A DNA stretch of 55,375 nucleotides from positions 1 through 55,375 of IMG/VR virus record IMGVR_UViG_3300008110_000371. One strand, 5' to 3'. This document shows, piece by piece, positions 13,936 through 47,749 of the stretch; position 1 is the stretch's first letter, and every line of letters starts with the position of its first letter. This DNA comes from a virus. The translations under genes and the position numbers were made by a program. The notes under the pieces are model-generated. The model saw only the letters and a list, made by a program, of their open reading frames with translations. It was not told where the DNA came from and made no database searches.

Positions 13936-16900
13936 CTAGGCCTTTTTGCGCTGGCTTACCTGCGCGAGTTTATCGAGTTGTTGCTTGGAAGTCGATGTTT
14001 CACGTGGAACATTGACGGGGCCGCCGTCCTGATAAGGAAAAGGCTCGCCTGTTAGTTTGCTGACAACATCCTTGTCTACGAAAGGTTTCTTAAGAAATAG
14101 ATTATTTGCTGTCAAAAGTTTCCTGAGCTCATCATCAGACAGGCCAGAAGGAAGCTTGCTTCTGCCTCCAAAATCAATGATGTTTTTGACCTCAACGCTT
14201 TTGACGTTTGGATCTTTTTGCGCCTCTTTAAATTCTTTACTGGTTTCAAAAAATTCATCCCACTGCTCGCCTTTGGCATCAAGCACAACCTTAGGCCTGC
14301 GAGTCAGGACAGGAATGATAAAGCCCCTGTCTCCTGAGTACGATTCTGCAATCGTTGGGCTTTCCGTTAACCAAACACCACCTTTGGTATTTGCTTTTGT
14401 GACATCCCTGTCTCCAGGTTGACGTGACACAGTGCCAGCACGACTCCATGGTCTACCTTGTTTAGCATCTCTTAGCGCTAGCTCAATGGCGTCAGGTCGT
14501 TTTTGATATTCATAAACCGCCTCAAGGTATTCGTACGTAGGAGGTTTCTCAAACCCTCCTCCAGGATCCTTCTTGCCACGCAACCACGTACGGTCAACAT
14601 CAATACCTTGTTCCTTAAGTCGGTTCATCAGTTCTTTGACTGAAAACTGTTCAGCCTCGGCAACATCAAGGCCTCTTCCCTTAAAGGCCGTGGAACCCCT
14701 TGCTTTGTCAAGCATGCCAAGAAGTCCCTTTCGGCCTATCATGCCAACAGCAGCCAGGGGCGTTGGAGTAGCCGCAATCCGATAGGCCTCTGTAGGATTT
14801 GTCTCATCGTACGGTCCCATACCAACAAGGGCACGCATGCCTTCACGAATGTCTTTGCGAACCTTTTCCGCATCCTCGTTTTTTTGGGGCAACTTGCCTC
14901 GGCGGTAACTTTCCTGTTGCGCCGTCTTCAAACGATTAAGCATGCGTTGAGACTCTGAACGCATCTCAGCGTTCTCATCGATCAACCTGCCTTCAGCATC
15001 AAGCTGGGGGACTTCTGCTGTGTTGGGCGATGCTGTTTCACGTGAAACATCACCGCCCTCCTGGAATCCAGGAGGAATGGGGGGAACAAGAGGATCCTCT
15101 AATCCGGAGGGCTCTTTATAGGAAATACCACCTGTTCTTCTAAAGGCTGCGTAAGGATCTACATTGCCTTCTGGAGTAAAACCGACATTGGTTTGAAATC
15201 GTGCAAGGGGCTGGTTTTCGATGATACTGCGAATGTTTTGGGCAATGTCTTGAACTTGACTACCCGTCTCGGGCTGCTTCAACATGGTTGCAAAAGCATT
15301 GGCGGTTTCGCCAACTTGCGTAGGTGTCACTCCCTCCAGGCCTTGTAACTGCTCCATGCCAAGCCGTAAAGAACCAAGCCCTGATTGGGGCACAAGGCTG
15401 GGAACATCTTGCAATGTGCGTAGGGTTGCTTCAAAAGAAGCAGGATCGTAAGCCTGCAAGTTGCGTAACGATTGGACTGGATCGATGTCGCCGGTAATTT
15501 GATCGACAGACATCGTATTAGCAAGCCTCTGGTTTAAAACATTGCTCTCTTGCAGAGCGATCAACTGATCAAGCGCGGTCAACTCAGGCGTGGACCTAAG
15601 TTGATTGCGATCAAAGCGGTCAATCATCTCAACAACGCCGGGGTCTGCAAAGCCTGCGCCAAGCCCTTTGTCGCTTAAGCCGGGAGTATAGTCAAGCGGA
15701 TTTGTGGGCGATGCTGTTCCACGTGAAACATCACCGCCCGACTGCTTTTTTATGAAATCCTCCGTGCTGGCTTCACCGCCCTTGCTAAAGAACGCCGTGG
15801 CATACGGGCTTTGCAACGCGCCCATTCCTAAAAGAGGCGACGTTCGCCCCTCCTTCCTGCCATAGGTATCAAAGTGATAAAGCTCGTAGTCCCTTAGCGT
15901 GGGGAACTTTGCTTTGTCCTCGGGCTTGAGCTTGGCATAGGCCGCAGCAATATCCGGGTACTGCTCCGAGTAGCTCTTAGGCGTCTGTTGCTCGGCCAGG
16001 GACGTAAGTGCTGCGCGGTTCCTGGCAAGGAAGGGATCAAACGCCGCTGCAAGATCCGAGGCAAACGCACTTTGCCCGTACTGGACACGCAAGGCGGGAT
16101 CGGCTTTGGTCGGGTCGTACTTTTGCTGCTCAATGTCCCTGAAGCGCAACTTATTTTGCAGCATGGGATCTTCGCCGCTCATCACAAAATCACGAAACGC
16201 CGCCGCTGCACTTGTGGGCGCTTGGGCCGGGAGGCTTTTATCACCAGCTGCTGCCCGTGCGTAAAGCTGCCTGAACTGGTTATCCAGCGTTGACCGATCC
16301 CGCGCAAACTGTTGGCTTGCCGACAAAGGCAAACGCATCTGGCCTGTGACCGGATCGACCATGACTCCCGGTACATCGCCAATGTTAAGCGGCGATCGTG
16401 GGCGGCTCGTGATGCCTGGAGGCGTCCACTTAAAAACATTCGTTCCCGTGGCAGGTGTGAGCTTGGCAGCAGGGCTGTAGTTATAACCCGTGATGCGACC
16501 GAAGCGATCATAGGTCGCGGTTCTCGGTGCAGAGGCCCTGAACTCGGTATCAAGCTGGGGGATTGCGACGCGCTCGCTCTGTGGAATAGCCTTTACGATC
16601 GCGGTGCTCGGATCAAGGCCCTCTTGTCCTGGGGTTAAGGCAGGGGGCGGTGCTTCGGGAGGCGGTGCTGTAGGTGGGACAAAAATATCCGTGAGCGGTG
16701 GCAGATCAGAGGGTGGTTGAAAAAGGAGGAGATCATTACCCTGTGCGCCCTTGATCGTATCATTGCCTTGGCCGCCCGCCACCGTCGTAATAACAGGAGG
16801 TGGTTTTTGATTGACGTCATAAAGATCATTCAAGAGCTGACTTGCCGTTTTACCCGTTGCACGGACTAAGTCCTGCTCATTAAAGCCGCCAATCCCTGTC

Positions 16901-18885
16901 TCTGGGTCGTAGGCTCCCAGCTGCTGTGTCAGCACATCACCCAGTTGCTCCCTGGTCATTTTCGCTGCAACCTGATCCTGGATAAAGTCCCGGATGTTTG
17001 CGGACATGCCTTCAAGACCACCGACACCACGGCCAGGGGCATCGGTTGCACCGATGTCAGGATTCAATAGCGCATGGACAGCGGCTCCCGAGTACTGCGT
17101 CCCGGCCAACGCGTCACGGACGTCCTTGTCCGAAATGCCATACTTCTCCATCTCGGCGCGCACTTCGGCAGCATTAAGGTCCGCACCTTGCGTATTGACA
17201 AAGTTTCGGATGTTTTCGTAGTACTTGGCAGCACCTATGCCACCTTCGCCCGTAGCGTACTTAAGTCCTGATGACACGTCGCCGCCGTCAGCAAACCGTT
17301 GCAGCATTTGTCGAGCTTTACTCTCCTCGTTCTTATCGACTGAACCGCCACTGGCAAAGCCAAAAGGCGCGAAAAAAGGACGCTCTTCTGTGTACCCAGG
17401 CATCCCTGGCTCTCCCTTAACGCCTTTAAGTCGTTTGCTCAAATTTTCATAAAGTTCTTGCATACGATCAACTTGCGTCTGGTAAGGGCTTGTGCGTGGA
17501 ATATCTTTAAGCAACGTCGTTGTGGGCACAGGTTGTGCAAAAGGCGTATCAGTTCTTTCGGTTCCTTGGCCGCTAACCTGTTGATAGGGCTGGAAACCAA
17601 AAAACGTATCATTAACACCTGGGGTGATACCTTGACTCTTTAACAACGAGCTGATGTTCTCACTAAATTTGGGCGAAAGGCGTTGTGCATCCCCCAGCAA
17701 GTCCTGTGCTCTGTAATTGCCCCCAACAAGAAAATTCCCTTTTTGGTCAACAATACCGCGCTCGACAAACCCTTTGGGGTCTCGAAGTGACACCACACCG
17801 TAACCTGTCGTAGGATCCCTGTAAACCGAATCCAGGACGTTGCCTTGTCCGTAATTTTGTTGATAAACCTTACTTTCCCATAGCTGCTGAGATGCTGGTG
17901 CTGCTTGTTCTGTTTGATAAGCACCCTGTGCTTCTTGCACCGCCGATGAAACCGGATCAAACAACTCAGGTCGCTGACGTTGCAGCATTTGATAGTTTGG
18001 GTTTTCTTTCATCAAGCGTTGAGCTTGATCAAACCATTCCATCTTATTTGGCGATAGCGCCTCTTCTTGCTGACGCAGTGCATTGACGCGCTGCAACATA
18101 CCCAAGGCCGTTACATCCTGTGATTTACGCAAACTATCCGCATAGGCTGCTTGTTCTTCAGGCGATAACCCCTGGGATACCCCTGGTATGGGTCGGTCAC
18201 TTCGATAAGCTTTTCCATCAGGACCCTTGACCATGAAGTAACGCTCACCCGTGGCTTCGTCCGTAAAAAGCTGGTTTGCCTCGCCGCCATCAGCAAAACG
18301 CTGCAACATGCGTCTTGCTTCACTTACCTCACCGCCTCCTGCCAACCGAACAAGACCAAAACGACCCTCTAGGGGAATCACATTTTGATTTCCACCAAAC
18401 CCGCCACCCATGCTTCCGTAACCGCTACCGTAAGGCGAGGGCTGCGAAAAAGTGCTACGCGTATTCGTATAAGGAGAGGAGGCACTTGATAAGGGTGATT
18501 GATTCAAAGGAATTGGAGCCGCTTGTTGTTGAAAAGGATTAACAGGTGCTGTCACGTTACCTTGGATCACGGCTCCAGGTCCAAGGGCATTTTGCATCTG
18601 TAAGCGCAGCTGTTGCTGTTGCTGTTGTTGTGCTGCCGCACGTCGAGCCAGAACCTCCTGGCCACTTTGTTCCTGGAACTGTTGGGCATAGGGCTGAATT
18701 GCCTGTTGAAAAGCAGCGGCTGCACCTTGGATGTCCTGCAAACTAAAAGGGCTATTGCCTCGCACAAAAGCATCGTTCAGCTCGCTGAACTGTTGGCTCA
18801 AGTTTGTAACGTTTGCATATGTCGGGTTAGCTGTAAAAAGCTGTGCAAAATTAGGCAGGGCAGTAGGGTTGCCGGACGTGCTCAT
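13936..18885 (-). CDS. Giant virion-associated protein (1649 aa) with GG repeats and ART-like C-terminal segment
   Basis: This very long, mostly low-complexity protein has a Gln-rich N-terminus. It carries at least six Gly-Gly motifs, including two copies of the 10-mer MLQRFADGGE/D preceded by AR(R/Q). It also has a RTX-like stretch (GGQGNDTIKGAQGNDLLLF). Near residues 1530-1600, VSRQPGDRDVTKANTKGG, VWLTESPTIAESYS and PVLTRRPKVVLDAKGEQWDE resemble fold elements of ADP-ribosyltransferase-like domains in phage polyvalent proteins; this is inference. An AAGGAGC Shine-Dalgarno sequence supports the start. It sits between TerL and portal. Three parS-consensus sites lie in its 3' half. Role unknown; an ejected or internal head protein is plausible. 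Confidence 0.65.
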   Translation of the reverse strand: MSTSGNPTALPNFAQLFTANPTYANVTNLSQQFSELNDAFVRGNSPFSLQDIQGAAAAFQQAIQPYAQQFQEQSGQEVLARRAAAQQQQQQQLRLQMQNALGPGAVIQGNVTAPVNPFQQQAAPIPLNQSPLSSASSPYTNTRSTFSQPSPYGSGYGSMGGGFGGNQNVIPLEGRFGLVRLAGGGEVSEARRMLQRFADGGEANQLFTDEATGERYFMVKGPDGKAYRSDRPIPGVSQGLSPEEQAAYADSLRKSQDVTALGMLQRVNALRQQEEALSPNKMEWFDQAQRLMKENPNYQMLQRQRPELFDPVSSAVQEAQGAYQTEQAAPASQQLWESKVYQQNYGQGNVLDSVYRDPTTGYGVVSLRDPKGFVERGIVDQKGNFLVGGNYRAQDLLGDAQRLSPKFSENISSLLKSQGITPGVNDTFFGFQPYQQVSGQGTERTDTPFAQPVPTTTLLKDIPRTSPYQTQVDRMQELYENLSKRLKGVKGEPGMPGYTEERPFFAPFGFASGGSVDKNEESKARQMLQRFADGGDVSSGLKYATGEGGIGAAKYYENIRNFVNTQGADLNAAEVRAEMEKYGISDKDVRDALAGTQYSGAAVHALLNPDIGATDAPGRGVGGLEGMSANIRDFIQDQVAAKMTREQLGDVLTQQLGAYDPETGIGGFNEQDLVRATGKTASQLLNDLYDVNQKPPPVITTVAGGQGNDTIKGAQGNDLLLFQPPSDLPPLTDIFVPPTAPPPEAPPPALTPGQEGLDPSTAIVKAIPQSERVAIPQLDTEFRASAPRTATYDRFGRITGYNYSPAAKLTPATGTNVFKWTPPGITSRPRSPLNIGDVPGVMVDPVTGQMRLPLSASQQFARDRSTLDNQFRQLYARAAAGDKSLPAQAPTSAAAAFRDFVMSGEDPMLQNKLRFRDIEQQKYDPTKADPALRVQYGQSAFASDLAAAFDPFLARNRAALTSLAEQQTPKSYSEQYPDIAAAYAKLKPEDKAKFPTLRDYELYHFDTYGRKEGRTSPLLGMGALQSPYATAFFSKGGEASTEDFIKKQSGGDVSRGTASPTNPLDYTPGLSDKGLGAGFADPGVVEMIDRFDRNQLRSTPELTALDQLIALQESNVLNQRLANTMSVDQITGDIDPVQSLRNLQAYDPASFEATLRTLQDVPSLVPQSGLGSLRLGMEQLQGLEGVTPTQVGETANAFATMLKQPETGSQVQDIAQNIRSIIENQPLARFQTNVGFTPEGNVDPYAAFRRTGGISYKEPSGLEDPLVPPIPPGFQEGGDVSRETASPNTAEVPQLDAEGRLIDENAEMRSESQRMLNRLKTAQQESYRRGKLPQKNEDAEKVRKDIREGMRALVGMGPYDETNPTEAYRIAATPTPLAAVGMIGRKGLLGMLDKARGSTAFKGRGLDVAEAEQFSVKELMNRLKEQGIDVDRTWLRGKKDPGGGFEKPPTYEYLEAVYEYQKRPDAIELALRDAKQGRPWSRAGTVSRQPGDRDVTKANTKGGVWLTESPTIAESYSGDRGFIIPVLTRRPKVVLDAKGEQWDEFFETSKEFKEAQKDPNVKSVEVKNIIDFGGRSKLPSGLSDDELRKLLTANNLFLKKPFVDKDVVSKLTGEPFPYQDGGPVNVPRETSTSKQQLDKLAQVSQRKKA
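13996..14011. promoter_or_regulatory. parS-like site A
   Basis: TGTTTCACGTGGAACA matches the bacterial chromosomal parS consensus TGTTNCACGTGAAACA when read on the minus strand (TGTTCCACGTGAAACA). It lies in the coding sequence of the 1649-aa protein near its C-terminus, encoding V-P-R-E-T. ParB/Spo0J proteins of most bacteria bind this 16-mer; binding here is untested. Confidence 0.75.
15034..15049. promoter_or_regulatory. parS-like site B (perfect palindrome)
   Basis: TGTTTCACGTGAAACA is the perfect palindromic form of the parS consensus. It is the centre of a 34-bp imperfect palindrome (15025-15058) whose 17-bp arms match at 15 positions. It encodes V-S-R-E-T within a GG motif repeat of the 1649-aa gene. 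Confidence 0.8.
15715..15730. promoter_or_regulatory. parS-like site C
   Basis: TGTTCCACGTGAAACA is an exact parS consensus match. The surrounding 34 bp (15706-15739) are identical to those of site B except for one base. It encodes V-S-R-G-T. It is 681 bp from site B and about 1.7 kb from site A. Confidence 0.8.
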
Positions 18886-18965: not shown

Positions 18966-21458
18966 TCAGTAGTACTCAAATTCCAATTGCGTTGATGGCT
19001 CATCGGCCTCATCGTCGTCCAACGCAACAAAGTTCCCGGCCCTGAACCGGCTGATGGCCTGCACGGTGCTATCGACCAAGTCATCATTATCGCCCTTGGG
19101 GAAAGCGGCACACTCCTCAATCAACTCCTCTGCCCACTTCGTTTGTGGTGCCCAGACCATCCCCGACTCAAACACGGGTGCAACAGCATTCGCGCGGGCG
19201 ATCTTATCCTGATTCTTCTTCCTGCCTCCCGGTGCATAAGTCGTCACAGGAATGCCCACGCGCCGAAGCTCCTGCTGCAAACTCGTCCCCGTGGCCTTGG
19301 CCTCGATCAACACATTATCCGGTCGCCAGTGATCGTACTGGGCCTTAGCTACCCTTTTGAGTTCCGGAAAGTCCCAACGGCCTTTTTTAACATCGAGGAG
19401 AATAATGGCAGGTCCGTCGTCTGCGCTGGGACGGAATACACCCCAGGTGGTGATGGCTGAAAAGTCAGCTGTCTCCTTCTTGCTGTATGCAGTGTCATAG
19501 CTCTGGATAACATATTCAACTTCGGGGGTGTAATCATTTTCCCAGATCCTCCACCAGTCACGCTTTAAAATCGCCCCCTCATCATTGGTGGGCTGCTGCT
19601 GATACATCGACTGCCACTTCTGCACCGACAACGTCGCCCGGACCTTTTGCAACTCATCAAGGCTCCAGTAGCTTGGCCAAAGGGGCTTTTCGTCCTCGGT
19701 ATGCTCATTCAATATCGCCGGAAACTCAATCACTTCCCACTGATCCGACTTCGGCTCCGCTTGCGACCTGATCAACCGTGCCGTCAGATCCTTCATCCCC
19801 CAGCGGGTCATCACAACCACCACCGCCCCTCCGGGTTGCAAACGTGACCGAGGGCCCGAGGTGTACCACTCCCAGGCATTATCCAAAGCAAGCTCTGACA
19901 AAGCGTCCTGTTCGGAATGCGGATCGTCAATAATCAAAAGATCCGCACCGCGCCCTGTCATCGCACCCCCCACACCCACTGCGTAATACTCCCCGCCACC
20001 ATTGGTGTCCCACCGACCAGCAGCCTTTGAATCCGCCTTCAAACTCACCGCCGGAAACAAAGCCTTGTAGTTGTCCTGATCCATCAAGTTACGAACCTTT
20101 CTGCCAAAGCGCACCGCTAACTCGCCGTTGTGCGTGGCTTGAATGATCTTGGACCTTGGCTCACGGCCCATGGCAAAGGCAGGCAAGAGGTAGGACGCAA
20201 ACTCACTTTTCGTGTTATGCGTACACAGATACCCGTCCCCCGCTAAAAACAACCCGTCCCCTCGATCAACCTTGATGCATTGTGTATCGCCTGTCTCATG
20301 AAGCCTTTCTACGGTAATGTATCGGCCAAAGGTCCGCTCGCCCGTCAAAAGACGTTCACGCTTTTTAGGCAACAAACAACAATCACTGTGGTAAAACGAC
20401 ACACGCCACGTTAGGCCATACGACTTGTCACCAATCTTGGCCTCTGACTCAAGCACCGAGGCCTTTGTGCCAAGGCTTCGAATTAACTGCGCAACATCCT
20501 GCGCCATGCGCCAATCGCTTTGAGCAAAAGAACACTGTCCCTTCTTGCTTACACACCCGTCCGTATCCATTAACCCACGCAACAAATCAAGACGTTGTGT
20601 CACCGATCCAAGCATATAAACCTCTGGGATATGCTTATTGCCAAGAACGCCCAGCTCTTTAAGCTTTACTTGAAGGTCAAGCGTGCCGAAGGTTTTCCGT
20701 GTCGCTTGATCCGTGGTTCTTGTTCCACGGCGCTCAAACTCCTGGCGCAAAAACACCCTGTTCTTATCATCCGCCGTAATAATCCCTGAGTTTTTCGAAC
20801 CATCCCCAAGCCATACACCCAGTACATACGGGTCAACCAAAAGGTCTTTTTCCTCGTACTGAACAGGTTTCACATCTGGCAGTCTTGGCAGTCGAACGTC
20901 TATCGCTCGCTTACCCTTCAAAAACTCTGTCTTACCACCACGCGTCTTTCTCAAGACCTCACCATGCTGCCTTCGCCACAACTCCTCCGTGGTGTAGTCA
21001 TGATAAATCCCGTGCTTTCGATCAAGCCTCACGGTCCACAGATGCTCGCCATCCACAACTAACGATGCACCATCGTCGGACGTCACACGATAAAGCGTTC
21101 TGCCACGGAATACCTCTGATTTTCCAATGACTTTGGCGGGCGAGCCATCGACCGAGAACACCGAATCACCGACCTGGAGCTCGGCCATGGTCTTCCACCC
21201 TTGTGTCGTCGGTATCTTCATACTAGTCATTATAGCATGACGTGGAGGCATATTCACGATCAAGCGCTTTAACTCACCATTGATGATGCGGTCAAAGGCG
21301 TTGGCCATGCGACTGTGATGGGCGCTGAAGATCGCCTCCGGCCAAACATAACGAGCAAAGTCCAAGAAAGACTGAGTGCTCTTTTCTTGAGCATCAAGGA
21401 TCCTGAGCCTTAGCTCAAGGCGCAGTTTCTCGGCTTCAACGTCGGCGGGAAGGGTCAT
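18966..21458 (-). CDS. terL: Terminase large subunit interrupted by an intein
   Basis: The host protein packages DNA: an N-terminal ATPase and a C-terminal RNase H-like nuclease. Numbering from the ATG at 21458, the P-loop region VNMPPRH is split by the intein (residues about 75-415) and continues TKSEFASYLLPAFAMG. Walker B is LLIIDDPHS (about 507-515), the coupling motif is MTRWG (about 550), and nuclease acidic residues lie in QSYDTAYSKKETADFSAI (about 653-668), LIEAK (about 717) and GDNDDLVDS (about 789-797). Extein length is about 489 residues, normal for the family. A TTG at 21476 would add six residues; no clear Shine-Dalgarno sequence favours either. It is followed by a remnant of a second terL end. 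Confidence 0.9.
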   Translation of the reverse strand: MTLPADVEAEKLRLELRLRILDAQEKSTQSFLDFARYVWPEAIFSAHHSRMANAFDRIINGELKRLIVNMPPRHAIMTSMKIPTTQGWKTMAELQVGDSVFSVDGSPAKVIGKSEVFRGRTLYRVTSDDGASLVVDGEHLWTVRLDRKHGIYHDYTTEELWRRQHGEVLRKTRGGKTEFLKGKRAIDVRLPRLPDVKPVQYEEKDLLVDPYVLGVWLGDGSKNSGIITADDKNRVFLRQEFERRGTRTTDQATRKTFGTLDLQVKLKELGVLGNKHIPEVYMLGSVTQRLDLLRGLMDTDGCVSKKGQCSFAQSDWRMAQDVAQLIRSLGTKASVLESEAKIGDKSYGLTWRVSFYHSDCCLLPKKRERLLTGERTFGRYITVERLHETGDTQCIKVDRGDGLFLAGDGYLCTHNTKSEFASYLLPAFAMGREPRSKIIQATHNGELAVRFGRKVRNLMDQDNYKALFPAVSLKADSKAAGRWDTNGGGEYYAVGVGGAMTGRGADLLIIDDPHSEQDALSELALDNAWEWYTSGPRSRLQPGGAVVVVMTRWGMKDLTARLIRSQAEPKSDQWEVIEFPAILNEHTEDEKPLWPSYWSLDELQKVRATLSVQKWQSMYQQQPTNDEGAILKRDWWRIWENDYTPEVEYVIQSYDTAYSKKETADFSAITTWGVFRPSADDGPAIILLDVKKGRWDFPELKRVAKAQYDHWRPDNVLIEAKATGTSLQQELRRVGIPVTTYAPGGRKKNQDKIARANAVAPVFESGMVWAPQTKWAEELIEECAAFPKGDNDDLVDSTVQAISRFRAGNFVALDDDEADEPSTQLEFEYY
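20214..21236 (-). mobile_element. Class 3-like intein with LAGLIDADG (DOD) endonuclease in TerL
   Basis: The 341-residue element begins with Ala after PPRH and ends GYLCTHN before Thr of the extein. The first residue is not a nucleophile, and the three residues that define class 3 inteins are all present: Trp in block B (DGEHLWTV, intein residue 67), Cys in block F (DTQCIKVD, residue 320) and Thr before the terminal His-Asn (residue 339). Splicing would then start at the block F Cys. Two LAGLIDADG-type helices, YVLGVWLGDG (about 137-146) and LLRGLMDTDG (218-227), form the homing endonuclease. The insertion splits the ATP-binding loop, the usual conserved-site choice for inteins. Confidence 0.88.
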
Positions 21459-21950
21459 TGGTTTTGAAATTTGCAAAAAATTTTCAGGGAAATCGTGTTC
21501 TAGAACAAGGGGGTGGGTTTCTGGAAACGAGAAAAGTGTACTTATATCAGAAAACTGTTTTAGGCCCTAGTTGTTTTTGCGAAACCGGGCCAAGGTCGGC
21601 GTCCGCTGCGAGGGCCGGGCCATCGCGCTGGATTCTAGAACCTAGAGCGTTATGAAATCTATCGATCGCCGTCGGGACTCGCCCCAGGGGCGGGGGCCAG
21701 GGCGCCAGGGCGCGTACCAGGGCGCACGCCTGGGCGATCGGGGCCCGCGTACCAGGGCGCAGCATGCGAGGCCCAAGGCCCAAGGCCCAAGGCCCAAGGC
21801 CAGCGAGCCACTCTGAGGAGCTAAGGATCATGGGGGATTGACAAGGGATCAAGGCGCAAGGATCACGCGCCTAGTTTTGATTGATGCGCCAAATGCATTA
21901 ATCATCACGCATTGATGCATTGGGTTAAATCACAGTCTTTGCAGACCTTA
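21459..21950. other. Non-coding GC-rich region upstream of terL
   Basis: About 490 bp without a convincing gene. It contains two copies of the palindrome TTCTAGAA (near 21500 and 21633), a very GC-rich stretch (about 21680-21770) with repeated CCAGGGC and a duplicated GCGTACCAGGGCGCA, four tandem GGCCCAA units, and a further heptamer cluster at 21841-21870. An open frame of 101 codons here (21547-21852, minus) is just the repeat read in one frame. Its place beside terL makes it a candidate packaging site; that is inference. Confidence 0.5.
21770..21801. repeat. Tandem heptamer GGCCCAA x4
   Basis: Four exact tandem copies of GGCCCAA (TTGGGCC on the other strand) plus four bases. This is the most regular of the heptanucleotide arrays dispersed over the window; other arrays are degenerate with the form CCNTGRN. 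Confidence 0.85.
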
Positions 21951-22019: not shown

Positions 22020-22289
22020 TTAAACTGAAATTGACCCGTACTCAATGGCGAAAACTGGCTCGCGTGTAAGCTTATCAACAATAACCAAGTTATATTGGTC
22101 ATCCTCAACGTCTGCCAGTGAGGGGTCACGGATAAAGCCCTCAGACATCATCCGATCAAGGACATATTCTGGCTCACGGTCTATGTCTATAGTGATTTCA
22201 CCTACGTTGTACCAAGCATTCCATGTCCAACCCTCTTCACTATCCACCCATGCATCGATGGATAAAACTTTGAATGTATGCTCTTTCAT
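22020..22289 (-). CDS. Small acidic early protein (89 aa), unknown function
   Basis: The product begins MKEHTFKVLSIDAWVDSEEG and contains WTWNAWYNVGEITID. This phrase (VLSIDAW ... WNxW ... VGEI) recurs in small phage proteins of unknown function. The ATG at 22289 is preferred over one two codons upstream because AAAGGG lies 6 nt before it. It is transcribed from its own promoter (22337-22364) with an operator-like palindrome in the leader and ends before a terminator, so it is a one-gene early unit. Confidence 0.65.
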   Translation of the reverse strand: MKEHTFKVLSIDAWVDSEEGWTWNAWYNVGEITIDIDREPEYVLDRMMSEGFIRDPSLADVEDDQYNLVIVDKLTREPVFAIEYGSISV

Positions 22290-22313
22290 AATCATCCCTT
22301 TCTGTCTGTATTG

Positions 22314-22328
22314 CTAGCGTATCGCTAG
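22314..22328. promoter_or_regulatory. Operator-like inverted repeat
   Basis: CTAGCG-tat-CGCTAG is a perfect 6-bp inverted repeat located just downstream of the -10 box of the promoter at 22337-22364, at the expected transcription start. It could bind a repressor; no cognate regulator is identified. Confidence 0.45.
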
Positions 22329-22336
22329 TGGGATTA

Positions 22337-22364
22337 AGTATACACTTTTTATTGACGCATGCAA
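22337..22364 (-). promoter_or_regulatory. Sigma70-like early promoter P1
   Basis: On the minus strand TTGCAT and TATACT are separated by 16 bp, with AAAAGTG directly before the -10 box. It drives the 89-aa early gene. The same layout occurs at 22980, 23583, 23924 and 40267. Confidence 0.65.
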
Positions 22365-22367
22365 GGC

Positions 22368-22607
22368 CTAAAAGGTCACCCTTAATTCAGTGGCGATATT
22401 CCACGCCAATGTATATGCATGCTCCCTTACTTGGTCAGACTCAAGACCAAATTCCTCTAAAACTTCCTCAAAATGGGCCTCTTCGTTGTCGATTGTGTAC
22501 TGTATAAGTCGACTAATCATTTGAAAAACTTCCTCAAAATGGGCCTCTTCGTTGTCGATTGTGTACTGTATAAGTCGACTAATCATTTGAAGTTGAGTGC
22601 TATCCAT
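22368..22607 (-). CDS. Small early protein with perfect 22-residue tandem repeat (79 aa)
   Basis: From the ATG at 22607 (TAGGGG five bases upstream) the product is MDSTQL followed by two identical copies of a 22-residue unit beginning QMISRLIQYTIDN and ending in EEAHFEEV plus F or L, then a helical tail (DQVREHAYTLAWNIATEL). Both units are predicted amphipathic helices. The DNA repeat is exact over 65 bp, so the duplication is recent. A longer frame to 22739 is a shadow of the neighbouring gene. Function unknown. Confidence 0.6.
   Translation of the reverse strand: MDSTQLQMISRLIQYTIDNEEAHFEEVFQMISRLIQYTIDNEEAHFEEVLEEFGLESDQVREHAYTLAWNIATELRVTF
22461..22591. repeat. Perfect 66-bp tandem duplication
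   Basis: The 65 bases at 22461-22525 are repeated without change at 22527-22591 (period 66, two further matching bases to the left). The unit is a multiple of three and keeps the small gene in frame. Confidence 0.9.
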
Positions 22608-22615
22608 AAAAACCC

Positions 22616-22687
22616 CTATAAGAAAAACCCAAAAAACAAGGCGCATGCAAGCCCTGCGCCGAAAACGGAGGCTATAAGCCAATCCAT
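22616..22687 (-). CDS. Possible 23-residue membrane microprotein
   Basis: The frame from ATG 22687 reads MDWLIASVFGAGLACALFFG then FFL and a TAG. It is almost entirely hydrophobic, as expected for a single membrane span. GAGG lies seven bases upstream, and the start is two bases past the stop of the DUF7249-like gene, as in an operon. The short length means chance cannot be excluded. Confidence 0.45.
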   Translation of the reverse strand: MDWLIASVFGAGLACALFFGFFL

Positions 22688-22689
22688 GC

Positions 22690-22929
22690 CTAAACCTCAA
22701 GCTTTTCATTTTCCTCCTGATAGTGGGAGGCGATTTCATGCCAATTAACTTCAGAAATGAAGGTTAGAGCATAATCACGCGCCACGCCTTCGGGGGTCGT
22801 CGAATAGATTATTTCTTCGGCAAACTCTTTAGCGCTGTCGGGATCCCAAGGCCCCTCGGATCCGTCGAATAGCTCTAAATTGACGCGCCATGTAGCGTAG
22901 TTAGTCCAACCATTGTATGTAGTTGCCAT
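22690..22929 (-). CDS. DUF7249-like protein (79 aa)
   Basis: The N-terminus TYNGWTNYATWRVNLELFDG is the hallmark of a small phage family I know as DUF7249 (NGWTNYxTWRVNLE). It is an acidic protein of unknown function usually encoded in early regions. It is preceded by AGGAG, a 5' leader hairpin and promoter P2, so it heads its own small transcription unit. Confidence 0.8.
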   Translation of the reverse strand: MATTYNGWTNYATWRVNLELFDGSEGPWDPDSAKEFAEEIIYSTTPEGVARDYALTFISEVNWHEIASHYQEENEKLEV

Positions 22930-22949
22930 GATCGATTTCTCCTGTATGA

Positions 22950-22972
22950 AAGCCAGTCAAAATGACTGGCTT
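22950..22972 (-). promoter_or_regulatory. 5' leader hairpin (copy 1)
   Basis: AAGCCAGTCA and TGACTGGCTT form a perfect 10-bp stem with a 3-base loop between promoter P2 and the ribosome-binding site. The full 49-bp block 22937-22985 is identical to 23540-23588. It may protect the mRNA 5' end or regulate translation. Confidence 0.7.
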
Positions 22973-22979
22973 GATTGGA

Positions 22980-23007
22980 AGTATATACATATTTAAAGAG
23001 TTTGCAA
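22980..23007 (-). promoter_or_regulatory. Sigma70-like early promoter P2
   Basis: TTGCAA and TATACT on the minus strand with a 16-bp spacer. It reads into the leader hairpin and the DUF7249-like gene. Confidence 0.65.
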
Positions 23008-23008
23008 G

Positions 23009-23335
23009 TTAGCTCGACAACTTAGCTATCATCTGTTTCGCCTCTGATGTTACGTTTGAAACCATGTCAATATAATAACCGCCTTCGATGAAGTCTCGCA
23101 CTGACTCATAGAGGCACCCGCCTAAGTAATCCGATCCAAGCAATACATCGTGCTTGTACGCCTCAACGCGAGCAACGAACCAAAGCAATAGGCCCTTGTC
23201 TATCTTGTCGCATATATCTTCCAAGTCTTCAATAGCATCATCAAATAAGTCTCTCGGGTGCATGTCTTCTGGTGCAAAACTGAGCACGACACGGAACCCG
23301 TCTATGTCTTCAGTGTTAACCTGTTCATATATCAT
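23009..23335 (-). CDS. Acidic early protein of unknown function (108 aa)
   Basis: The product begins MIYEQVNTEDIDGFRVVLSF and has an acidic helical middle (DLFDDAIEDLEDICDKIDKG) followed by LLWFVARVEAYKHDVLLGSD. The GAGGGGG Shine-Dalgarno sequence supports the start. It follows the 61-aa gene by 14 bases and probably shares its promoter P3. Not recognised; small acidic early phage proteins often inhibit host enzymes, but nothing here shows that. Confidence 0.6.
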   Translation of the reverse strand: MIYEQVNTEDIDGFRVVLSFAPEDMHPRDLFDDAIEDLEDICDKIDKGLLLWFVARVEAYKHDVLLGSDYLGGCLYESVRDFIEGGYYIDMVSNVTSEAKQMIAKLSS

Positions 23336-23349
23336 TTTAACCCCCTCTG

Positions 23350-23535
23350 TTAGACTTGAGCACTCTTCGCAATTGATTGGAACATCTTGTAATAGTCGCG
23401 AGCGATACGATAGTCATCACAGCGTACCTTATCCCGTAATTCGGATCCCACATAACATTGCACTAGGTACATGCCCGAGGGATGAAGACGGTCTAAAGTT
23501 GCGTAACCGTTTGAAAAAACCTTAATTTTGGTCAT
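23350..23535 (-). CDS. Small early protein of unknown function (61 aa)
   Basis: MTKIKVFSNGYATLDRLHPS opens a 61-residue protein with alternating charged and aromatic residues (DYRIARDYYKMFQSIAKS). It is the first gene behind promoter P3 and the leader hairpin copy 2, with AGGAG seven bases before the ATG. Function not recognised. Confidence 0.6.
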   Translation of the reverse strand: MTKIKVFSNGYATLDRLHPSGMYLVQCYVGSELRDKVRCDDYRIARDYYKMFQSIAKSAQV

Positions 23536-23552
23536 GTCATTCTCCTGTATGA

Positions 23553-23575
23553 AAGCCAGTCAAAATGACTGGCTT
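23553..23575 (-). promoter_or_regulatory. 5' leader hairpin (copy 2)
   Basis: Same 10-bp stem and AAA loop (TTT on the transcript) as at 22950-22972, again between a promoter and an AGGAG site. Part of a 49-bp perfect duplicate (23540-23588). Confidence 0.7.
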
Positions 23576-23582
23576 GATTGGA

Positions 23583-23611
23583 AGTATACACATAACCAAA
23601 ACGCTTTGCAA
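23583..23611 (-). promoter_or_regulatory. Sigma70-like early promoter P3
   Basis: TTGCAA, a 17-bp spacer and TATACT on the minus strand. This is the best match of the set to a sigma70 promoter. It drives the 61-aa and 108-aa genes. Confidence 0.7.
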
Positions 23612-23612
23612 A

Positions 23613-23711
23613 CTATCGCCTTTTCTTATCACTAGTGAGAGCCCGAAGGGCGGACATCAAAACAAAATTCCGAAACAGCGTCCACACGAGAGCCCACTTA
23701 GATTGATGCAT
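23613..23711 (-). CDS. Possible 32-residue membrane-like microprotein
   Basis: The ATG at 23711 opens MHQSKWALVWTLFRNFVLMS and ends with a basic tail (SDKKRR). AAGGG lies six bases upstream, and the start overlaps the end of the 64-aa gene by 14 bases. The hydrophobic core and positive-inside tail resemble a small membrane protein. Short length limits certainty. Confidence 0.4.
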   Translation of the reverse strand: MHQSKWALVWTLFRNFVLMSALRALTSDKKRR

Positions 23712-23892
23712 GTTCAACACCCTTCGAAAGCCACTCGTCCAAGTTTTCCCGGATAGCAATCGCTTGCTCACGGGTAATCGGGCTGGAGCAATGCGCGCCC
23801 GTCTTCCAAAGTGCAAGCCACAGTCCGGTCTCATGGTCGCTGAGTGTTAAACGCTCATAATTACCAAGTTCAATTGCTGCATTCCATTCCAT
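23698..23892 (-). CDS. Small early protein (64 aa), unknown function
   Basis: From the ATG at 23892, selected because AAGGAG lies seven bases upstream, the product is MEWNAAIELGNYERLTLSDH followed by ETGLWLALWKTGAHC and a helical end (TREQAIAIRENLDEWLSKG). A frame reaching 23976 would run through promoter P4 and is rejected. It is the first gene behind promoter P4. Not recognised. Confidence 0.6.
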   Translation of the reverse strand: MEWNAAIELGNYERLTLSDHETGLWLALWKTGAHCSSPITREQAIAIRENLDEWLSKGVEHASI

Positions 23893-23923
23893 CACTTTCT
23901 CCTTTCTTAAACATCGAGCCTTA

Positions 23924-23951
23924 ACTATACACTTTTCAAAAAGCTTTGCAA
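23924..23951 (-). promoter_or_regulatory. Sigma70-like early promoter P4
   Basis: TTGCAA, 16-bp spacer, TATAGT on the minus strand. It overlaps the last codons of the nuclease gene and reads into the 64-aa gene. Confidence 0.6.
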
Positions 23952-24341
23952 GCCTCCCGAATCCCCAATCCGCCAAACCGCATTCGGTTTTTCGCTTATC
24001 CCTCGCTTGGCAACTTCAACCACGCGATTAGCACGATAGCCGTAAACATCAGTATCGACCGAGCGAAGCACGCTCTCAGGCCAGTAATGCACAAGCAAGG
24101 CATAGCCAATGCCTGCTTCGCTGGCCTGATGAGCAAAGGCGATCTGGTGAGGCGAGAGTGCAACTTTCGCCCCTGCCCTGACAACCTTCAACTCCAGGAA
24201 CACGACACGCCCATCGAGGGCAATCATCACGTCAGGAAAACCCAGCGGAAGCTTGCACTCAACTCTCATCGTCATGGAACAAAGGTCTTTCAATTGGGGC
24301 TGCACCCTTTTCCAAAAGTCCTTTTCTAATTTTCTCGGCAT
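23925..24341 (-). CDS. VRR-NUC-like PD-(D/E)XK nuclease
   Basis: The 138-residue protein has the order EKDFWKRVQPQLK, then GFPDVMIALDGRVVFLELKV and SPHQIAFAHQASEAGIGYAL. This is the G-x-PD ... (L)ELK ... S-x-HQ pattern of VRR-NUC/Holliday-junction-resolvase-like nucleases, with Asp, Glu and Lys as the metal-binding catalytic set. Such phage enzymes resolve branched DNA before packaging. The start lies 83 bases inside terS, with GGAAAGG as ribosome-binding site. The homologous core begins close to the N-terminus, so this long overlap is probably real. Confidence 0.75.
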   Translation of the reverse strand: MPRKLEKDFWKRVQPQLKDLCSMTMRVECKLPLGFPDVMIALDGRVVFLELKVVRAGAKVALSPHQIAFAHQASEAGIGYALLVHYWPESVLRSVDTDVYGYRANRVVEVAKRGISEKPNAVWRIGDSGGLQSFLKSV

Positions 24342-25077
24342 TGCTCAACCTTTCCAAAACGGTAGGCTTAGACGGTGCAACGGGTTCCACGTCCAGCACC
24401 TCACCCTGGTCGGACACAATAGCGGGCTTGCTGCCCCCATAAAGCTTGCTGATTTCCTCAAGCTTTTTCATGACCTCTTCTTTGCTCATCGAATCAATCG
24501 TGCCAACCCGGATTTCCTTGCGCTCCACATAGATCGTCCCCAAGGCCTGCCCACGTCGATATTCAGCCGCCACTGCTGCCGAGTAGGCCCCCGCAGCCAA
24601 GGCCATGTCCCTGATCCGTTGCATGTCCTTCATGTGCCGTTCGAACGAAGTGCCATGCTTAACGGCAAGCTCCGTTCTCAATTCCTGGATCGCCTGGACA
24701 ATGTGGGGCGACTGATGGGGATCGGTAAGCTTCCTGGAGTGCCACTCAAGCGTACGTTCAGGATACCCAGCCCTCCTGGCCGCTTCCTTAAGCGTTACGT
24801 CCCCATCCCCGGTCACATACTCCTTAACGAACGTCCACTCCTGCTTGGTCAAGACCTTCTTGCGAACCTTCTTGGGCAACGGCGTAGTAATCCGTTTCTC
24901 AACAACCTCTGGCCGCATCAAGGGGATCTGGTCTAACAAAGGCTTCTGTTCCCGAAGCGGCACTCCAGGCGTGACCACGCCCGTGCTCACGTCGAACACC
25001 GAAGCACCAACGCCAACACCCCCAGAAACCCCCTCAGAACCGTCTACAAGCGATTCTTTCACCGAATCCTTCTGCAT
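24259..25077 (-). CDS. terS: Terminase small subunit
   Basis: After an unstructured N-terminus the protein shows a helix-turn-helix region, LTKQEWTFVKEYVTGDGDVT then LKEAARRAGYPERTLEWHSR, typical of TerS DNA-recognition domains. A helical oligomerisation segment (MKDMQRIRDMALAAGAYSAA, VAAEYRRGQALGTIYVERKE) and an acidic tail follow. The ATG at 25077 fits GGGG seven bases upstream better than the ATG at 25083. It pairs with terL, although about 2.8 kb of early genes separates them, an unusual split. The last 83 bases also encode the start of the nuclease. Confidence 0.75.
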   Translation of the reverse strand: MQKDSVKESLVDGSEGVSGGVGVGASVFDVSTGVVTPGVPLREQKPLLDQIPLMRPEVVEKRITTPLPKKVRKKVLTKQEWTFVKEYVTGDGDVTLKEAARRAGYPERTLEWHSRKLTDPHQSPHIVQAIQELRTELAVKHGTSFERHMKDMQRIRDMALAAGAYSAAVAAEYRRGQALGTIYVERKEIRVGTIDSMSKEEVMKKLEEISKLYGGSKPAIVSDQGEVLDVEPVAPSKPTVLERLSNAEKIRKGLLEKGAAPIERPLFHDDES

Positions 25078-25322
25078 ACCCATTCCCCTTCATCAGAACT
25101 GCTCTGGCGCACCCAGAACTGCCTTCCTGGATGCCTTGCATAAAACGACTGCAACCCTGATCGAACAGCACTGGCCTCGCCCATCGATCTTAGAACAAAG
25201 TAATCGCCAATCAACATCTTGGCAAAAGGATACTTTGCCCTTCCCGTAGGCCCGAAAACAACACCCCAATCCCGAGGCGTGATCCCTGGCAAACGGATCT
25301 CTTCATCTTTCGCTTTGCTCAC
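25059..25322 (-). CDS. Small conserved phage protein (87 aa)
   Basis: The product contains RDWGVVFGPTGRAKYPFAKM then LIGDYFVLRSMGEASAVRSG and FYARHPGRQFWVRQ. The phrase YPF...M.xGDYF resembles a small DUF7303-like phage family; I give that with low confidence. The GTG at 25322 is chosen because GGAGG lies seven bases upstream; a TTG one codon earlier is possible. It is the first gene after the putative origin and overlaps terS. Confidence 0.55.
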   Translation of the reverse strand: MSKAKDEEIRLPGITPRDWGVVFGPTGRAKYPFAKMLIGDYFVLRSMGEASAVRSGLQSFYARHPGRQFWVRQSSSDEGEWVCRRIR

Positions 25323-25436: not shown

Positions 25437-25471
<35 letters not shown>

Positions 25472-25856: not shown

Positions 25857-26003
25857 CCGTGACCCTTGGTCCATGAGCCTTGATCCCTGCCACTTCCTCA
25901 CTAAGTTAGTGCCCACTAACAAAACAAAAAGACCCGTGAGCCTTGACCCACGGGCCTCAATCCGTGAGCCTTGATCCTTAATCCTTGGACCTTGACCCCC
26001 GGG
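25857..26003. repeat. Degenerate heptanucleotide arrays
   Basis: Two arrays in strict 7-base phase. 25857-25891 has five units (CCGTGAC, CCTTGGT, CCATGAG, CCTTGAT, CCCTGCC). 25934-26003 has ten consecutive units, among them CCGTGAG twice and CCTTGAC twice. The consensus is CC-N-T-G-R-N. This is the largest of the dispersed heptamer clusters. Confidence 0.85.
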
Positions 26004-26114
26004 CCTACCAAATCTCCTCTGTAACCCGGTTACGGAGGATGTTTTGCCTTTGCGCGCCTACCAAATCTCCTCTGTAACCCGGTTACGGAGGATGTTTTGC
26101 CTATGCTTGCCTAC
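26003..26114. repeat. 53-bp tandem repeat with internal palindrome
   Basis: Two nearly identical 53-bp units (26003-26055, 26056-26108) and the first six bases of a third. Each contains CCTCTGTAAC-CCG-GTTACGGAGG, an inverted repeat with one mismatch. This could be an operator or hairpin element at the end of the small-gene operon. Confidence 0.85.
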
Positions 26115-40266: not shown

Positions 40267-40295
40267 AGTGTACACTTCGATTTCAGGACATGCAA
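40267..40295 (-). promoter_or_regulatory. Sigma70-like promoter P5 of the replication operon
   Basis: On the minus strand TTGCAT, a 17-bp spacer and TACACT. The -10 lies in the palindrome AGTGTACACT (40267-40276), so the same box could serve the divergent SNF2 gene, though its -35 (TTCTCA) is weak. It belongs to the family of early promoters at 22.3-23.9 kb. Confidence 0.55.
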
Positions 40296-40316
40296 GTCCT
40301 GCAAGAAAGGAGAATG

Positions 40317-41771
40317 ATGGAAGAGCAATATTTAGCGAATTACCCGTATCGAAACAAACCCTTCGCGCACCAGCAAGCGTACCTTGAGCGGTTCTGGCGC
40401 AAGCCTCTCGCAGCGCTTTTTGCTGACATGGGCACAGGCAAAAGTTATATGTTAATCAATAACTTAGCAATGCTCTATGACAACGGCGAGGTCAACGCTG
40501 CGGTGATCGTAGCGCCTAAAGGCGTCTACAGAAATTGGATCGATATAGAAATCCCAAAGCACATGCCAGCGCACGTGGTTTACCGCGCAGCACTGTGGAC
40601 GCCCTCACCGCGCAAGGCTGAGAAGGCTGCACTGGATTCCATTTTTGAAGTTACCGAGGACTTAAAAATTCTCGTGATGAATGTTGAAGCGTTCTCAACG
40701 GACAAGGGCAAGCTCTTTGCGCAGCGCTTTGTCTTGTCGCACACGGTGCTGATGGCCGTTGATGAAAGTACAACCATCAAAACGCATACCGCTGCAAGGA
40801 CCAAGAACATTACAAAAGCTGGAAGGCTTGCTCGCTTTCGCCGGATCATGACCGGATCGCCTGTAACCAAGACGCCGATGGACTTGTTCTCGCAGTGCAA
40901 CTTCCTGTCTTCCGATTGCTTGGGCACGGACAGTTTCTACGCGTTCCAATCGCGCTTTGCAGTGGTGATCGAGCGCCGTGTTGCAACGCACGCTTTCAAG
41001 CAGGTGATTGGATACCAGCGGCTCGATGAATTGCAAAAGCTTGTCAGTCGGTTCAGCTTCAGAGTCACCAAGGAAGAGTGCCTTGATCTGCCTGAGAAGC
41101 TTTTTGTGCGGCGCGATGTTGATCTGACCGATGAGCAGGCGCTTGCCTACAACCAGATGAAAGCCATGGCGCTTGCACAGTTCTCCACAGGCACGGTATC
41201 CACGGTCAATGCGCTCACGCAACTGATGCGGCTGCACCAGATCGTATGCGGCTTCGTGAAGCTTGATGATGGCACCATACAGGAGCTGCCTAATAACCGC
41301 ATCCAAGAGTTGCTCAACGTCATCGAAGAAACAAGCGGCAAGGTCATCATTTGGGCGACCTATCGACACAACATCGAGGCCATCCATCTTGCACTGCAAA
41401 AAGCGTATGGCATGGATTCGGTGGGCGTTTATTACGGCGACACAAAGCTTGATGAGCGCCAGCGTGTGATTGAGAAGTTCCAAGATCCAAGTTCCTCGAT
41501 GCGGTTTTTCGTAGGCAACCCACAGACAGGCGGTTATGGGATCACGCTCACAGCGGCAAGTGTCGTTGTCTATTACAGCAACAGTTTTGATTTAGAAAAA
41601 CGATTACAGTCCGAGGACCGTGCTCACCGCATCGGCCAAGTCAACAAGGTGACCTATGTGGACTTGATCGCTCCTAAAACGATCGATGAAAAGATCGTCA
41701 AAGCCCTGCGCGATAAGATCGATATTGCAACCCAAGTCCTTGGTGAGGAACTTAAACAATGGCTCATCTGA
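40317..41771 (+). CDS. SNF2-type helicase
   Basis: Motif I is ADMGTGKSYMLI, with AVDESTTIK in place of DEAH, TGSPVTKTPMDL (motif III), GKVIIWATYRHNIEAI (motif IV) and QSEDRAHRIGQ (motif VI), the hallmark of SNF2-family ATPases. The 484-residue length fits phage SNF2 helicases of replication or recombination modules. The chosen ATG at 40317 (MEEQYLANYPYRN) sits just behind AAAGGAG; longer frames start before the ribosome-binding site. Overlaps the exonuclease start by 13 bases on the same transcript. Confidence 0.88.
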   Translation: MEEQYLANYPYRNKPFAHQQAYLERFWRKPLAALFADMGTGKSYMLINNLAMLYDNGEVNAAVIVAPKGVYRNWIDIEIPKHMPAHVVYRAALWTPSPRKAEKAALDSIFEVTEDLKILVMNVEAFSTDKGKLFAQRFVLSHTVLMAVDESTTIKTHTAARTKNITKAGRLARFRRIMTGSPVTKTPMDLFSQCNFLSSDCLGTDSFYAFQSRFAVVIERRVATHAFKQVIGYQRLDELQKLVSRFSFRVTKEECLDLPEKLFVRRDVDLTDEQALAYNQMKAMALAQFSTGTVSTVNALTQLMRLHQIVCGFVKLDDGTIQELPNNRIQELLNVIEETSGKVIIWATYRHNIEAIHLALQKAYGMDSVGVYYGDTKLDERQRVIEKFQDPSSSMRFFVGNPQTGGYGITLTAASVVVYYSNSFDLEKRLQSEDRAHRIGQVNKVTYVDLIAPKTIDEKIVKALRDKIDIATQVLGEELKQWLI

Positions 41772-42450
41772 TTCCAATCCGCGAGAAGTATCACTATGAA
41801 AAGCTTGCCCGTCATGACGGCGAAGGCGGTCGCACGTATGGTGATCAAAAATTACCTAGCGTGACCCGCATCCTTGAGTCAACCAGGGACAAAGCCAAGA
41901 TTGACGAGTGGAGCGGGTTGGCAAAGAGGAGGCCGAGCGCATCAAGACGACCGCCGCCACGATCGGCACGCACATGCACAGTGTCATTGAGCACATGATT
42001 GCAGGGCAGGACTTGCCTGCGCCTTACACGCAGGAAGCGATCAAGGGCTACGAGATGGGCTACCGGCTGATCAACGAGCAGTTTGCGCATATCACCGAAG
42101 TATGGGGCTCGGAGGTTACTCTGTATATTCCGAATCGCTATGCAGGGACCACGGACATGGTGGGTTTGTACAAGGGGAAACCTGCGATCATTGACTTTAA
42201 GCAGTCCAATAAACCGAAGCGTCATGAATGGATCACGGATTACTTCCACCAGTTGTCCGCCTACGCGCTAGCGCACGACTATCAGTTTGGCACCGAGATT
42301 GAGATGGGTGTGGTGATGATGGCCATGCAATCCGGTGGTACGCAGGTATTCACGACCACCGGACGGGAGTTCAGCCAATATAAGACAGGCTGGCTTGAGC
42401 GGGTAGAGAACTTCTATCGTAACACCGCATCAAACGGGAAGAGCCTCTGA
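41759..42450 (+). CDS. RecB/Cas4-like exonuclease, frameshifted
   Basis: The 5' part (MAHLIPIREKYHYEKLARHD, LPSVTRILESTRDKAKIDEW) and the 3' part (ERVGKEEAERIKTTAATIGT, HMHSVIEHM, then ITEVWGSEVTLYIPNRYAGT, TDMVGLYKGKPAIIDFKQSN) are in two frames. A single extra base around 41910-41913 joins them into the PD-(D/E)XK exonuclease pattern G-T-x-x-H, DMVG (active Asp), IIDFKQS (Asp and Lys) and YFHQLSAYA. It would process DNA ends during replication or recombination. The shift may be a true lesion or a sequencing error. It converges with the 1101-aa gene, overlapping 37 bases. Confidence 0.75.
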
Positions 42451-45719: not shown

Positions 45720-45721
45720 CA

Positions 45722-47740: not shown

Positions 47741-47749
47741 CGCGGCTCC

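Follow-up and report, generated by a model that had tools for sequence, protein, structure and literature searches.

The window, by which we mean the whole stretch of DNA analysed here, is IMG/VR virus record IMGVR_UViG_3300008110_000371 and comprises 55,375 bases. Long open reading frames with PHROG matches lie on the minus strand, with the exception of a helicase gene (40290-41771). Among named phages, Phage DSL-LC04, phage 023Pt_psg01 and the Pelagibacter phages HTVC027P and HTVC023P provide the best matches for the large terminase subunit (TerL). The interval between the genes for the small terminase subunit (TerS) and TerL is occupied by a variable run of small genes, and within this run one and the same leader is found upstream of two of them (Table 1). 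The sequence-only reading took these for early genes, an assignment that is unsupported; they sit between the two terminase genes. P0002, encoded downstream of leader A, has no Pfam or PHROG match, and P0001, encoded downstream of leader B, scores 26.1 bits against DUF7249, just short of the curated cut-off of 27. Neither the two proteins (tblastn) nor the region 22301-24400 (blastn) found a match in 50,697 phage records, a set that may omit records very near the window. In the TerL relatives L004-L023, P0002 and the gene at 22020-22295 were without a tblastn match and the 108-aa gene following P0002 yielded only a weak one, in L011; P0001 was excluded from this comparison. Translation of the gene at 22020-22295 more likely begins at its second ATG (22289) because the ribosome-binding site (SD) abuts the first one.

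Table 1. Leaders, promoters and genes in and around the TerS-TerL interval (positions in the window).
Feature	Position	Strand	Remarks
Promoter A	23583..23611	minus	TTGCAA (23611-23606), 17-nt spacer, TATACT (23588-23583)
Hairpin A at predicted transcript 5' end	23553..23575	minus	10-bp stem, 3-nt loop, first base 8 nt past -10
Copy A of identical 49-bp block	23540..23588	minus	-10 to ribosome-binding site
Gene of leader A (P0002)	23350..23535	minus	61 aa, ATG at 23535
108-aa gene	23009-23335	minus	14 nt after P0002, without own promoter
Promoter B	22980..23007	minus	TTGCAA (23007-23002), 16-nt spacer, TATACT (22985-22980)
Hairpin B	22950..22972	minus	same as hairpin A
Copy B of identical 49-bp block	22937..22985	minus
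Gene of leader B (P0001)	22690..22929	minus	79 aa, ATG at 22929, DUF7249-like
Promoter C	22337..22364	minus	TTGCAT (22364-22359), 16-nt spacer, TATACT (22342-22337)
Hairpin C	22314..22328	minus	CTAGCG-ATA-CGCTAG, -5.9 kcal/mol, first base 9 nt past -10
Gene of leader C	22020..22295	minus	91 aa
Fourth promoter	23924..23951	minus	no hairpin downstream, gene start near 23892
TerL gene	18966-21476		PHROG match
TerS-like gene	24259-25083

TerL comprises 836 aa; a strong TerL-family PHROG match begins only at residue 422, and residues 80-431 are covered by other PHROG matches. Several TerL relatives match in separate segments and the match in L020 spans 3.4 kb, so that some phages may have an insert in this gene. 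For four large proteins (1649, 1102, 672 and 700 aa) encoded in 13936-18885 and 42414-49852, PHROG gave no match at E 0.001. A perfect 66-bp tandem duplication (22459-22590) lies in frame within a small gene, adds 22 residues and represents either a recent event or an assembly artefact. At 26000-26105, a 53-bp tandem repeat (96%) features an 11-bp stem with a T-rich tail (plus strand) in each copy, and a T run is situated nearby at about 25438-25467.

Read on the minus strand, both leaders are arranged as TATACT (the -10 box), 7 nt, AAGCCAGTCA-TTT-TGACTGGCTT and then TTCATACAGGAGAA; past the perfect 10-bp stem with its 3-nt loop follow AGGAG and ATG. The claim that a 49-bp block running from the -10 box through the hairpin to AGGAG is identical upstream of two unrelated genes is borne out: 22937-22985 and 23540-23588 agree at all 49 positions, and BLASTP aligns P0001 and P0002 over just 11 aa with 15 bits. 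Extended to 22937-22991 and 23540-23594, the match covers 54 of 55 bp (98%). The -35-like TTGCAA lies outside the identical block, 17 and 16 nt upstream of the respective -10 boxes, pointing at a copied unit that extends from -10 to SD and does not include the whole promoter. The window contains no further copy of the block with up to 3 mismatches, and at the same tolerance none was obtained in 100 dinucleotide-preserving shuffles of the window. Copying, or conversion that kept the copies alike, has given two unrelated neighbours the same leader, which thus behaves as a reusable part. The sequence-only reading spoke of a recent copy of a control cassette. Copying is supported by 49 identical bases before unrelated genes; its recency is not datable, since gene conversion between the copies would look identical. 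The 54/55 identity and the nearby perfect 66-bp tandem duplication fit a recent event.

Transcripts initiated by sigma70 usually start at about the eighth base past the -10 box. In leaders A and B this eighth base is an A and the first base of the stem, in agreement with the proposal that the hairpin is located at the predicted transcript start. Each leader folds with -16.4 kcal/mol (z of -3.14 and -2.94); the centroid fold leaves the SD unpaired, and the MFE structure pairs it partly and weakly. A comparison of the window and of 20 loci with Rfam produced no hit that reached the gathering score.

A promoter scan of the whole window gave four hits with a TTGCA -35 element, all of which fall in 22337-23951 and one of which is stemless. 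Hairpin C has a 6-bp stem that is unlike A and B in sequence and occupies the same place after the promoter. The arrangement TTGCAN...GTGTATAGT followed by TARGGCTCGAT is conserved and hairpin-free at 23951-23924 of the window and in L004, L005, L006, L007, L008, L010 and L011; in these relatives the promoter sits near the gene that follows a nuclease-like gene. In TerL relatives, one recurring promoter (TTGCAT/TTGCAC...TATAGT before TAAGGCTCGAT) is stemless.

When other viral contigs were searched for the cassette, as the sequence-only reading had recommended, the outcome was negative: the hairpin pattern (one loop base left free) hit a single contig, L001, at a terminator-like stem with T-run, and the -10/leader pattern hit a single contig, L122, in coding sequence. 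A recurrent design is shared among viral contigs that consists of a sigma70-like promoter, 3-9 nt, a hairpin, an open purine-rich ribosome-binding site and a small accessory gene. Several TerL relatives feature, in the same stretch, TTGCA-type promoters followed by stems of differing sequence, SD and ATG. With a strict promoter rule and a stem of <=-4 kcal/mol beginning 4-11 nt past the -10 box, 12 of 21 non-redundant leaders in the TerL set contain a stem (16 of 420 when shuffled), as do 7 of 11 in contigs not found via TerL (2 of 220). For the non-TerL contigs, a looser promoter rule combined with a threshold of -6 gave 12/72 leaders vs 36/1440 shuffled ones. The complete set of 280 loci (the window and L004-L284 minus L124 and L125) contains many overlapping loci and its leaders were therefore made non-redundant. 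Among the 215 remaining leaders with promoter, SD and ORF, 74 carry a stem of <=-7 kcal/mol that is separated from the -10 box by 3-9 nt, compared with 72 of 4300 shuffled leaders (1.7%); the other 141 are stemless. Removal of the bait gene families leaves 46 stems in 166 leaders vs 51 in 3320 shuffled ones. Plotted against the distance from the -10 box, stems form a single peak at 4-9 nt, in a profile in which one stem may enter neighbouring bins via its inner part; stems are rare elsewhere and the shuffles are flat. The genes led by stems belong to 32 protein families (single-linkage BLASTP), including matches to DUF932, DUF7227 and DUF7249. In the 74 modules the start codon follows the stem at a median distance of 23 nt, which contains the purine-rich SD. 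The transcription start guessed by a simple rule from the -10 box lies no more than 1 nt inside the stem and no more than 2 nt ahead of it in 55 of them, and at least 2 nt inside the stem in the remaining 19.

Phages do not carry this stem as a general rule. Among controls, 3 of 27 leaders had one in lambda, T7, almost the whole of P22 and parts of five further phages taken together, and RB49, scanned for looser promoters, had it in 6 of 151. A plain MFE threshold of -5 was dropped as hairpin test, since 73% and 84% of shuffles passed it; it is uninformative because the leaders are GC-rich. The DUF7227 table of promoters against hairpins gave p = 0.80. Per-leader shuffles and single-stem scoring at fixed offsets served as replacement tests. 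Two hairpin leaders per contig are present in L050 (3224, 3504) and L103 (567, 1258), in small genes directly upstream of an apparent terminase-like gene start, and the two stems of L050 have their outer part in common. Among those listed, relatives of P0001 and P0002 have few stems near the gene, L103 being the exception.

Orthologous leaders allow sequence and fold to be told apart. The stem is kept and its letters are changed upstream of DUF7227 orthologues (L004, L005, L013, L017, DSL-LC04) and upstream of DUF932 orthologues (L010, L013, L090, DSL-LC04). Relatives were sampled as the best 80 of 554 for DUF7227 and the best 80 of 470 for DUF932. A simple stem of <=-5 is present in 45 of 48 non-redundant DUF932 leaders, and 42 have a -10 box 3-8 nt ahead of it. 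Shuffle tests covered leaders with a promoter call (38/42 for DUF932, 24/40 for DUF7227). For DUF932, 36 of 38 leaders have a better fold than 95% of their shuffled versions, compared with none of 38 coding windows from the same genes; for DUF7227 the figures are 9 of 24 and 1 of 24, and several of the DUF7227 stems contain mismatches. Two alignments of DUF932 leaders were evaluated, A4 with 34 of the 48 leaders, picked by eye for a common layout, and A5 with all 48. Two-sided changes occur in 8 of 9 pairs of A4 and 91.7% of its cells are paired, whereas sliding gave no more than 58.4%; 7 pairs are also predicted by RNAalifold. In A5, 84.2% of cells are paired vs at most 54.5% when slid, and two-sided change in 7 of 9 pairs was equalled by 33 of 500 shuffles; on this gappier 48-row alignment RNAalifold predicted no pair. 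As the DUF932 sequences are related, these covariation counts are not independent events. For DUF932, structure is thus conserved independently of sequence, and DUF7227 leaders make up a weaker, less clear case. The copied window leader is one case of a recurrent phage design, the fold of which is under selection at least for DUF932. DUF932 relatives on bacterial chromosomes (L285-L364, mostly from Halomonas relatives) often feature a GC-rich stem with a T-run just before the ribosome-binding site that resembles a terminator or attenuator. Of 60 such bacterial leaders, a promoter was called in one, and 32 outdo 95% of shuffles in folding. We treat this stem and T-run as a feature separate from the phage leaders.

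A palindrome just past the -10 box could also be a DNA operator that binds a repressor of both genes, and the two palindromes in question are indeed perfect and identical. Furthermore, one of the three stems from control phages sits at P22 Pant, where the annotation gives the Mnt operator, a lone DNA site bound by a dedicated repressor; like the stems here, its palindrome follows the -10 box, beginning 3 nt past it, so such a geometry can be that of an operator. The third palindrome of the window, however, differs, and orthologous leaders elsewhere change sequence and keep pairing. A G-U pair is present in 38 of the 74 modules, and the core pairs of A4 include 25 G-U, one A-C and 7 other mismatches. 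A DNA site would not prefer G-U; its excess over A-C argues for pairing in the sense RNA and not for a DNA palindrome, and we regard an operator as unlikely. Recognition could take place at the RNA level, the stem being bound by a protein or a small RNA that governs how these messages are translated or degraded, and two identical stems per genome could form a small regulon. A regulator target had been considered before; we rank it lower, given that orthologues in other phages retain a hairpin of altered sequence. Both stems and loops are highly variable in sequence, within as well as between genomes, and stems of different genes in one locus are hardly more alike than stems of different loci (mean similarity 0.44 vs 0.41), all of which makes such a target improbable. 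Stem sharing within genomes is unsupported as a general rule: a similarity of at least 0.8 is reached in 7 of 232 pairs vs 546 of 51,043, and five of these 7 within-genome pairs are one leader pair in overlapping or sister contigs.

The stems of PeSL (promoter early stem-loop) elements are transcription terminators. PeSL cassettes of T4-type phages have been linked with gene shuffling (PMC4503421), and it is conceivable that the window modules are composite promoter-terminators of this kind, in which the stem would stop transcripts arriving from upstream and the cassette would be repeated mainly to let genes be shuffled by recombination. Both combine a strong sigma70-type promoter with a stem-loop among small variable genes, and both occur as near-identical copies in one genome; the copied 49 bp may hint at recombination between copies. 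In RB49, however, 11 of 31 leaders (hand-picked from intergenic gaps and read by eye) have the stem either spanning the -10 box or in the spacer that separates it from the -35 box, so that it would fall largely outside the RNA from that promoter, whereas the window stems lie 7-8 nt past the -10 box and have no U-tract. Five or more T in the next 8 bases follow none of the 74 stems, which by sequence are thus not intrinsic terminators, a candidate that we rejected. The window modules resemble PeSL in their surroundings and in being copied and differ in where the stem sits and in having no terminator sequence, and a promoter-terminator of this kind appears very unlikely. The tightly set distance from the -10 box might alternatively indicate that the stem acts at initiation, the RNA folding behind the polymerase and thereby aiding promoter escape or setting a pause. 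Equal spacing is, however, expected from a stem at the 5' end, and we consider a role in initiation highly improbable.

On balance, we hold it probable that the transcript begins with a stem-loop that is selected as RNA structure, hinders 5'-end-dependent decay and insulates the ribosome-binding site. Each unit would by itself suffice as leader for the expression of one small accessory gene, with a promoter of the host sigma70 type, a stem-loop placed at or very close to where transcription starts, a short purine-rich ribosome-binding site left single-stranded, and the start codon. The stem-loop would be selected as folded RNA, not as sequence. It would leave almost no unpaired 5' nucleotides, such that RppH, RNase E or an equivalent attack on the 5' end would act poorly, and it would stop upstream RNA from pairing with the ribosome-binding site. 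Transcription presumably starts at the stem, and the messages may live longer and give higher output. An effect on RNase E had been suggested from the sequence as well; hindrance of 5'-end-dependent decay fits the anatomy and is the leading explanation. RppH and RNase E are described as relying on single-stranded 5' ends, so that 5' secondary structure stabilises mRNA, and bla mRNA is stabilised by an appended 5' hairpin (PMC3997798). According to the same source, inactivation of RppH affects only about 10% of the mRNAs in E. coli (PMC3997798), so that 5' protection is something we infer. Also weighing against it are the 19 modules with a guessed start at least 2 nt inside the stem, the weaker DUF7227 leaders, the missing RNAalifold consensus on A5, and the stemless promoters, 141 of 215 among the leaders and one of four in the window. 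Placed in front of a reporter in Cupriavidus necator, the T7 gene 10 stem-loop is described to raise output 1.5-3-fold along with mRNA abundance (PMC6146998). Tentatively, and with somewhat less conviction than for the leader itself, it is possible that uncultured phages kept or re-made, gene by gene, a sequence-free 5' RNA hairpin on accessory messages, set at +1 by the promoter, and passed it from gene to gene as a ready-made leader, as a structural cap substitute against host 5'-end decay or nuclease-based defence.

Varied hairpins at the same spot before accessory genes suggest that the fold itself is selected, and the covariation in DUF932 leaders is evidence that it is the fold that counts. 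Its role is most likely to protect messages and keep them readable. If this is true, these leaders constitute a large natural library of 5' hairpins, offer a simple rule to find separately transcribed phage accessory genes and their starts in metagenomes, and provide a direct way to test whether phages shield messages from 5'-end-dependent decay.

In N4-type phages, a sequence-conserved hairpin upstream of the start is recognised by the virion RNA polymerase. We rejected a hairpin of this type here, as the sequences of the hairpins vary and a sigma70-like -10 box precedes them; the PHROG matches of 23 window proteins, four large ones being matchless, include no RNA polymerase. Comparable in setting are the SAS/ESAS elements of cluster K mycobacteriophages, repeated leader elements with inverted repeats that precede some small genes and combine 13 bp of conserved sequence with imperfect 17-bp repeats whose spacer varies (PMC3203893). 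In the leaders described here, by comparison, the sequence is unconstrained, and the stem, short and in most cases perfect, is positioned by the -10 box. In the parts of the openly licensed papers covered by our literature search, we recognised no description of this architecture. 5'-Terminal stem-loops are already known from some bacterial mRNAs and T7 late mRNA. For E. coli, the ompA and papA mRNAs are cited as examples, and the start of the T7 phi10 transcript, which we folded, forms a terminal stem-loop. The stem at the 5' end of T7 gene 10 is followed by an open ribosome-binding site, a plan that the leaders presented here would share, and it is from this anatomy, a stem near the predicted 5' end and then the SD, that we infer protection of the message and a free SD. 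T7 transcribes gene 10 late, with its own RNA polymerase, whereas the promoters here look like those of host sigma70, and unlike gene 10 the genes served are small accessory ones from 32 families. Here the same design occurs as a common leader of accessory genes (DUF932, DUF7227, DUF7249-like and others) in uncultured phages.
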